64,000 nt of DNA, taken from Cupriavidus sp. WGlv3. GTDB lineage: Bacteria > Pseudomonadota > Gammaproteobacteria > Burkholderiales > Burkholderiaceae. Below the pieces are notes generated by a model. It was not told where the DNA came from, ran no database searches, and saw nothing but the letters and a program-made list of their open reading frames with translations. The stretch lies in the NCBI RefSeq assembly GCF_023952475.1, contig NZ_JALHRX010000005.1, positions 124,001 to 188,000 on the forward strand. The letters are read 5' to 3'. Shown one piece after another: positions 31,084 through 31,596 of the stretch (position 1 is its first letter; each line of letters opens with the position of its first letter). The translations under genes and the position numbers were made by a program.

Positions 31084-31199
31084 TTGCCGGCGGGCGCCCC
31101 GACCACTGCTGAGCGCGGTGGCCAAAGTTTTTTCACACGGCGCCCGCGCAAGGGCTTGCAAATTCCGCCGCCTTCGGTAGAATTCGCGGCTCACCACCT

Positions 31200-31286
31200 G
31201 CCCAGGTGGCGGAATTGGTAGACGCACTAGGTTCAGGTCCTAGCGGTGGCAACACTGTGGAGGTTCGAGTCCTCTCCTGGGCACCA
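31200..31286 (+). tRNA. tRNA-Leu (anticodon CAG)
   Basis: An 87-base tRNA gene with encoded CCA. The acceptor stem is GCCCAGG paired with CCTGGGC, the D arm is GGCGGAATTGGTAGACGC, the anticodon loop reads TTCAGGT (CAG), a long class II variable arm follows, and the T arm includes GGTTCGAGTCC. It reads CUG codons, which are dominant in this GC-rich genome. A terminator follows at once. A copy of its last 21 bases lies 149 bp downstream. Confidence 0.97.
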
Positions 31287-31292
31287 CAATTC

Positions 31293-31321
31293 AAAAAGGT
31301 CTGCGCATGCAGGCCTTTTTT
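31293..31321 (+). terminator. intrinsic terminator of tRNA-Leu
   Basis: The stem AAGGTCTGC-GCAT-GCAGGCCTT (nine pairs, one G-U) is followed by a run of T, seven bases after the tRNA CCA end. Confidence 0.8.
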
Positions 31322-31337
31322 CTTTTCCGCCCAGGAA

Positions 31338-31395
31338 GAAAAGCGCTTGAGCGCTTTTCGTGAGGACGAGAAGGGCTGCGCTTGCAAGCGCAGCC
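31338..31395. repeat. two adjacent perfect palindromes downstream of tRNA-Leu
   Basis: First palindrome: arms GAAAAGCGCT and AGCGCTTTTC around TG (31338-31359). Second: a 22-base perfect palindrome centred on TTGCAA with outer GGCTGCGC/GCGCAGCC (31374-31395). Neither is followed by a T-run strong enough to call a terminator. They lie between the tRNA and the copy of its 3' tail. Confidence 0.7.
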
Positions 31396-31414
31396 GGGGT
31401 CGCGCATGCGTGAC

Positions 31415-31435
31415 CGAGTCCTCTCCTGGGCACCA
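31415..31435 (+). repeat. duplicated 3' end of tRNA-Leu (att-like tail)
   Basis: These 21 bases are identical to the last 21 bases of the tRNA gene at 31266-31286, from CGAGTCC of the T arm through CCTGGGCACCA. The rest of the tRNA is missing. Such tails are left when an integrase uses a tRNA 3' end as attachment site, or when a second tRNA copy decays. No integrase gene is nearby. Confidence 0.75.
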
Positions 31436-31446
31436 GAGTTTCAGGC

Positions 31447-31475
31447 AAAGGCCCGCACGGAAGTGCGGGCCTTTT
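31447..31475 (+). terminator. intrinsic terminator after the duplicated tRNA tail
   Basis: A perfect 12-pair stem (AAAGGCCCGCAC and GTGCGGGCCTTT around GGAA) is followed by T-rich sequence. It ends 12-40 bases after the tail copy, in the position a tRNA terminator would occupy. Confidence 0.75.
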
Positions 31476-31596
31476 GCTTTTTGCAGCGTCAAAACCTCTC
31501 TCTCCTCCGCCGCCGCGCTATTGATCGCATACAGTAGTTCCATCCACAGGCCGCGGCCCCGCCTCAGCCTGTTACGCGTCATAACGGAGAACTACC

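Follow-up and report, generated by a model that had tools for sequence, protein, structure and literature searches.

The tRNA-linked repeats (TLRs) of Escherichia coli have in common an 18–19 bp copy of the 3' end of the tRNA or rRNA gene upstream of them, and the available text of PMC8144298 counts 22 such repeats at ten loci. They were first described in 1978 and, as far as that text goes, no function is known for them except for the evidence it presents on rrA, rrB and rrF. These lie between two terminators, arise by processing of read-through transcripts, bind Hfq and CsrA, and are reported to be conserved within Enterobacteriales (PMC8144298; an editorial on that paper is PMC9245011). A search of the literature, with most subscription journals outside its reach, found no report of TLR-type repeats in Burkholderiales. 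The present analysis concerns a 64,000-nucleotide stretch of DNA from Cupriavidus sp. WGlv3, referred to below as the window, in which the 3' end of a tRNA-Leu(CAG) gene is followed by a second copy of itself. We consider it likely that this feature is a Burkholderiales tRNA-linked repeat, namely a small non-coding RNA gene inserted precisely after the CCA of tRNA-Leu(CAG) and ahead of that gene's original terminator. Judged by its anatomy, the window holds one such unit, with an exact 3' copy and a place in the tRNA operon.

The host gene tRNA-Leu(CAG) lies at 31200–31286 on the plus strand, which also carries all the other parts given below; a second tRNA search matches 31200–31283. Promoter-like hexamers TTGCAA and TAGAAT, separated by 16 nt, were found 5' of the gene at 31156–31183 by consensus match only (one pair, compared with 0.1 ± 0.3 in shuffled sequence), and from their sequence they are presumed to be the promoter of both the tRNA gene and the repeat. 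The last 21 nt of the tRNA, running from the T-loop C to CCA (CGAGTCCTCTCCTGGGCACCA, 31266–31286), recur at 31415–31435 with 21/21 nt identical, 149 bp away from start to start. A preliminary description of the locus had pointed out this exact repetition, and it is confirmed: the 21-mer has two matches in the window and none in each of 100 shuffles. The third copy whose search was proposed there does not occur in the 64-kb window, and further tandem copies were found in relatives. As had also been described, both copies have a terminator-like hairpin with a T run on their 3' side, terminator 1 (T1) at 31293–31320 and terminator 2 (T2) at 31447–31474. A terminator scan found these two, compared with 0.8 ± 0.8 in shuffles, so that the scan is weak evidence by itself.

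The two terminators differ in their association with the repeat. Terminator 1 belongs to the inserted unit; it is missing at the repeat-less loci L186, L188 and L189, and recurs with each tandem unit, for example at L151. Terminator 2 is probably the original terminator of the tRNA, and a similar hairpin lies directly 3' of the CCA at the repeat-less loci L186 and L188. Because terminator 2 directly follows the CCA at repeat-less loci, the inserted unit comprises terminator 1, the core and the copy. The core, at 31329–31435, is a predicted 107-nt RNA with a closing stem (P1 and P2) and three hairpins (H1–H3), ending in ACCA. From 5' to 3' it consists of the P1 5' strand GCCCAGGA (31329–31336), the first 7 nt of which (GCCCAGG) are those of the 5' acceptor strand of tRNA-Leu(CAG) and are complementary to the 3' copy; hairpin H1 (31338–31359); the P2 5' strand GAGGAC (31362–31367), which complements the T-arm part of the copy; hairpin H2 (31374–31395), with a UGCA loop; hairpin H3 (31398–31415); and the second copy itself, which supplies the 3' strand of P2 and P1, the discriminator base and CCA. 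With T1, T2 and the three between the terminators, the hairpins number five rather than the four originally counted. Two perfect palindromes had been placed between the copies; H2 is indeed perfect over 22 bp, whereas H1 is a palindrome but for its two central bases.

Folding of 31329–31435 gave a predicted energy of −66.8 kcal/mol, compared with −42.3 ± 3.7 for shuffled sequences (z −6.69), and 0/200 shuffles folded as low. The predicted structure has five helices, in which P1 and P2 make one long stem with the tRNA copy as its 3' strand, H1 splits the 5' strand between the acceptor and T-arm parts, and H2 and H3 occupy the position of the T loop. The UGCA loop of H2 is self-complementary and is the commonest predicted loop, with 49 occurrences over 61 units; a kissing dimer formed through it is conceivable.

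This five-helix fold covaries among related units. Alignment A3, with 27 Leu sequences and a structure derived from those same sequences, has 94.2% of its cells paired and 11 pairs with changes on both sides; its covariation score was reached in 0/500 shuffles and its number of two-sided pairs in 18/500, while in pair types it does not exceed shuffled alignments (402/500 reach its number). Alignment A5 comprises 59 distinct sequences whose hosts are Leu, Asp and Ser(GGA) and, unlike A3, was built by fitting to the model R1 structure, a procedure that favours this structure; it has 95.5% of cells paired, compared with 32–49% in slid registers, and two-sided changes in 26/41 pairs. The covariation score of A5 is 0.512, compared with 0.173 ± 0.007 in shuffles, with 0/500 as high, and its pair types are without excess (reached in 204/500 shuffles). 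Alignments A1 and A2, in which P1 was misplaced between Leu and Asp, were excluded from the counts. The many two-sided changes in P1 are a few host differences repeated over many rows, not many events. Helices H1 and H2, which are free of the copy constraint, have two-sided changes in 8/9 and 5/9 pairs, respectively. Two positions of P2 show G-A and A-G oppositions in 14/27 Leu units and Watson–Crick pairs in 13/27; tandem GA is mentioned for the E. coli tyrT RNA in the available part of a review (PMC8250186).

For comparison, E. coli K-12 was surveyed for partial copies, in a set of stretches of which one (L331) lacked a tRNA, and with a detection threshold below which the reported rrnB 5S copy fell. 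Partial copies were observed at tyrT, tyrV, lysT, lysW, lysY, lysZ, lysQ, lysV and argQ, and none was found at leuQPV, argX-proM, the gly and met operons or glnX. Like the window unit, the E. coli TLRs (rttR at tyrT/tyrV, RtT RF00391; lysT-lysQ, lysV and argQ) lie directly 3' of a tRNA gene and close with the last nucleotides of that tRNA repeated exactly, 18–19 nt there and 21 nt here. Tandem units occur at tyrV in E. coli and also among relatives of the window unit. For most E. coli units, as for the window unit, the predicted structure has hairpins enclosed by a stem between the copy and a complementary segment upstream of it; lysQ and lysV are the exceptions. Unlike in E. coli, H1 interrupts the complement in the window unit, separating an acceptor part from a T-arm part, and a terminator 1 comes with every unit. 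RF00391 at its gathering score matched none of six Cupriavidus and family loci, and gave nothing up to E = 10 in 31150–31520; in E. coli, the positive control, it matched four times at the tyr locus and five times at the lys locus. In the reverse direction, model R2 gave 0 matches against 11 E. coli stretches at E up to 10 with default filters. The two groups therefore have a plan in common without a demonstrated common descent, since the anatomy is that of TLRs, yet neither RtT nor our own model links the sequences. In the E. coli lysT-lysQ operon (L327), four of the five RtT matches begin inside a tRNA gene, which suggests that in the Rfam RtT model the copied 3' end is paired with a 5' strand taken from the tRNA.

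Two further kinds of E. coli RNA are relevant. In RrA, RrB and RrF of the rRNA operons, a TLR lies between two terminators with a 150-bp spacing of the repeated 3' end, according to the available text of PMC8144298; their host is 5S rRNA and they bind CsrA, whereas the host of the window unit is tRNA-Leu. The same text describes 3'ETS-leuZ, a sponge RNA that is likewise a functional RNA from a processed tRNA-Leu transcript; it pairs with RyhB and RybB, and no copy of a tRNA 3' end is described there for it (PMC8144298). CsrA titration, the activity of rrA/B/F, was considered for the window unit and rejected: just 9/61 units have a GGA within a predicted hairpin loop, the motif is not conserved, and CsrA binding is therefore not suggested.

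The ends of the units usually match the host tRNA. Matching was counted on first-model matches at E ≤ 1e-9 from 43 hand-chosen sources, picked without requiring a copy; excluded from these sources were the tRNA-Leu loci of genus code g10, which have lost the acceptor part. A same-strand tRNA lies within 700 nt upstream in 64/66 of these matches, and their last 21 nt equal the end of that tRNA exactly in 53/64 and with at most two mismatches in 61/64. An earlier count over 111 units gave an exact copy in 84 and a copy within two mismatches in 108, and the 5' acceptor strand was fully complementary in 74 and had at most one mismatch in 107. The count over 64 matches is preferred because a near copy had been a condition for choosing the 111 units, some of which also entered the count with two upstream tRNAs. 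In 13 units the copy does not agree with the 5' strand of the tRNA; seven of these keep the tRNA letters, two (L210 and L319) follow the complement, and the other four fit neither, among them L296, whose tRNA is truncated by the end of a contig.

Not every unit retains the complete tRNA-like end. In the eight g10 matches listed 3' of tRNA-Leu, P2 and H1–H3 persist but the acceptor 3' strand and CCA are gone, and several units outside the family (L337, L355 and L356) have an exact 21-nt copy with P1 little or absent. Within g10 the copy is retained at L289, L290 and L293. At the g10 loci L287, L288, L294, L295, L310, L312 and L320, where P2 and H1–H3 persist, other sequence takes the place of the acceptor 3' strand and CCA, as though recombination had occurred at the T stem.

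In the WGlv3 genome, the unit, defined as a partial 3' copy with the core within 600 nt, is found at 3 of the 56 tRNA genes detected with the Rfam model, these being the tRNA-Leu of the window and two tRNA-Asp genes; the remaining repeated tRNA ends all belong to whole tRNA genes. Cupriavidus genomes were searched with the locus and with the unit, 60 genomes each, and relatives were taken among the matches listed. Among these, the same unit lies 3' of tRNA-Leu genes, single or in tandem, and a related core lies 3' of tRNA-Asp(GTC), with the copied end being that of tRNA-Asp. Cupriavidus metallidurans CH34 carries a unit at the tRNA-Leu of NC_007974.2. Of 20 dispersed core hits taken from those listed, 19 adjoin tRNA-Asp and one (L209) has neither a tRNA nor a core match; BIME/REP elements are by definition palindromes scattered between genes with no tie to tRNA genes. 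In a background scan of 80 loci fetched by 21-mer pattern, with L111–L150 left out, 1/89 CCA-ended tRNAs has a partial copy within 260 nt; this is a Trinickia unit with the same core.

A first covariance model, built from the 27 Leu units, matched in at least 74/249 genomes and 8/25 genera of the family, a lower bound with at most 15 candidates scored per genome, and revealed tRNA-Ser(GGA) as a further host within the family. A second covariance model, used at the level of the order with 11 candidates scored per genome, matched in 16/349 genomes and 10/147 genera, with tRNA-Ser(CGA) and tRNA-Glu(TTC) as further hosts. This gives five host tRNA types in all, Leu(CAG), Asp(GTC), Ser(GGA), Ser(CGA) and Glu(TTC). 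Outside the family, exact copies are present in family codes f4, f8 and f38 and decayed ones in f10 and f25; the 16/349 include matches with no visible host copy (L339, L343 and L344) and matches with decayed copies (L340, L341, L342 and L345). In a class-wide sample, 1/321 genomes matched, namely WGlv3 itself, a result that leaves room for unrelated TLR cores because the E. coli TLRs do not match the model. Two or more units in tandem occur at L151, L155, L169, L173, L182, L202 and L282. The last of these (G196:C1 2149000–2151300) is the largest array, with seven core matches and two tRNA-Leu genes in ~1.3 kb. At L156, L157, L161, L288, L294, L295 and L321, two or three tRNA-Leu(CAG) genes lie 1–7 kb apart, most of them with a core match.

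A comparison with related strains, as proposed in the preliminary description, revealed that the unit comes and goes at the tRNA CCA. Among ten genomes with a common upstream flank, whose loci were selected by match and do not give population frequencies, six (G000, G018, G021, G023, G056 and G057) carry one or two units at the locus. G002 and G049 have a terminator-2-like hairpin straight after the tRNA CCA and no unit, G054 has terminator 1 alone, and G055 has terminator 1 with a P1/H1 remnant. At a second tRNA-Leu locus the unit is present in G055 and absent in WGlv3, and a near-identical terminator follows in both. The unit is dispensable, since 4/10 of the compared genomes are without an intact one, and its loss would require only recombination between the two tRNA 3' ends. 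A tree of 110 cores from five hosts has five host changes, compared with a minimum of four and a shuffled mean of 41.4, and a tree on roughly H1 and H2 only has six, both trees being weak, with few columns. Because cores cluster by host tRNA, units appear to move rarely between tRNA species.

Several other explanations were weighed against an RNA-making repeat. The scar left at an attachment site by an excised mobile element, suggested in the preliminary description, would account for the direct repetition of a tRNA 3' end over an att-like length and for its presence or absence between genomes, and has in our view almost no probability: a conserved, structured interior is found in related form at five tRNA types and in many genera, where a scar would be lineage-specific, and 10 ORFs tested downstream, in 31.6–43.7 kb, contain no integrase, transposase or phage Pfam family (one of them has no Pfam match at all). 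Nor is the idea that the copies bracket the entry to an accessory gene stretch borne out by these ORFs or by the downstream gene start, which is the same in related genomes without the repeat. No phage or plasmid record has a single place covering 80% of the query; in the best 20 of 88 phage records the similarity does not extend beyond the tRNA region, and among the best 40 of 74 plasmid records four (H1–H4, Cupriavidus replicons of ~2.5–2.8 Mb) reach the core. The possible look of integration at such a site is provided by G041 (L360, G041:C4 1–11500; L304), in which a stretch with a tyrosine-recombinase-type integrase gene and a phage capsid gene is bounded by a tRNA-Ser-like 3' end (44 nt, near base 69–112) and by a Ser-type unit whose upstream end is reduced to CCCTCTCTCCGCCA. 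This stretch, which lies near contig ends so that its assembly is not certain, is probably an element integrated in tRNA-Ser(GGA), and it differs from the window locus. The segment from the T loop to CCA is the kind of site used by tRNA-targeting integrases, and the second tRNA 3' end might accordingly be a harmless integrase target that shields the tRNA gene, as the G041 element in a tRNA-Ser 3' end beside a unit could suggest. That element, however, is upstream of the unit, at its tRNA-side end, and a decoy site has no need for a conserved interior, leaving such shielding very improbable. An equally slight chance is given to a decayed tandem tRNA-Leu gene, also proposed earlier. Whole tandem tRNA-Leu genes do occur in relatives, the tRNA is matched at both ends, by the 5' acceptor 7-mer and by the last 21 nt, and the disagreeing units keep the tRNA 5' letters (7/13) more often than they follow the complement (2). 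The likeness, however, is limited to these two segments; no second tRNA is called there, the middle consists of three conserved hairpins, 13/27 Leu units complement T-loop bases of the copy, a pairing that a tRNA lacks, and a related core is found 3' of Asp, Ser and Glu tRNAs.

Two alternatives dispense with a specific RNA product. The unit could be a selfish or neutral DNA repeat, spread and lost by recombination at tRNA 3' ends, with hairpins that have no RNA role beyond termination. Its variable occurrence at one exact position in each of two loci, the remnant states, the tandem copies and the persistence of exact copies where P1 is weak or absent are all consistent with this reading, which we nevertheless judge unlikely in view of a helix covariation score reached in 0/500 shuffles, a clustering of cores by host (five changes compared with the minimum of four) that implies rare jumps, a length of 149 bp that is too short to encode mobility, and the fact that no autonomous partner was seen in the 10 downstream ORFs or the G041 stretch. 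A terminator or insulator cassette, in which extra hairpins block read-through from a strong tRNA gene as BIME/REP can, is decidedly improbable. The core is hairpin-rich and is flanked by two terminator-like hairpins, and BIMEs, some of them resembling rtT, are said to act as terminators (available text of PMC2965389); such a function would leave unexplained the CCA-ended copy, the host-matched complement and the covarying H1–H3, and one terminator suffices at related loci.

The predicted fold, the covariation and the occurrence of units at five tRNA types support the remaining suggestion of the preliminary description, a short RNA with a tRNA-like tail, and the repeat is probably RNA-making. 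In the proposed pathway, transcripts that start at the tRNA promoter and pass terminator 1 would run through the core to terminator 2, and the RNA would fold with the tRNA copy as the 3' strand of a tRNA-like acceptor/T-arm stem. The tRNA maturation enzymes could then trim the transcript, possibly with an RNase P cut before G31329, to give an RNA of ~107 nt (31329–31435) ending in CCA, the level of which would follow transcription of its tRNA gene. Gain and loss among loci of the same tRNA species would proceed via recombination between identical tRNA 3' ends. As to what the product does, a structured sRNA seems to us more plausible than a pure spacer, and so does a decoy that captures a factor recognising the acceptor end of tRNAs.

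More tentatively, tRNA-tailored RNA cassettes may form a general class in two orders, in which the strands of the closing stem match whichever tRNA is the host, and in which an acceptor/T-arm mimic with CCA, matured by RNase P together with the tRNA 3'-processing enzymes, reports on or competes in the maturation or use of the host tRNA; we regard this as possible but doubtful. The locus also cautions against taking tRNA-end repeats of this kind for att sites. A Burkholderiales core that is unrelated to those of E. coli and has the TLR plan constitutes a second set of TLRs, with covariation diversity, natural empty sites and five host tRNAs, and this second set makes testable the question of why a bacterium keeps a structured RNA that copies the ends of the adjoining tRNA.
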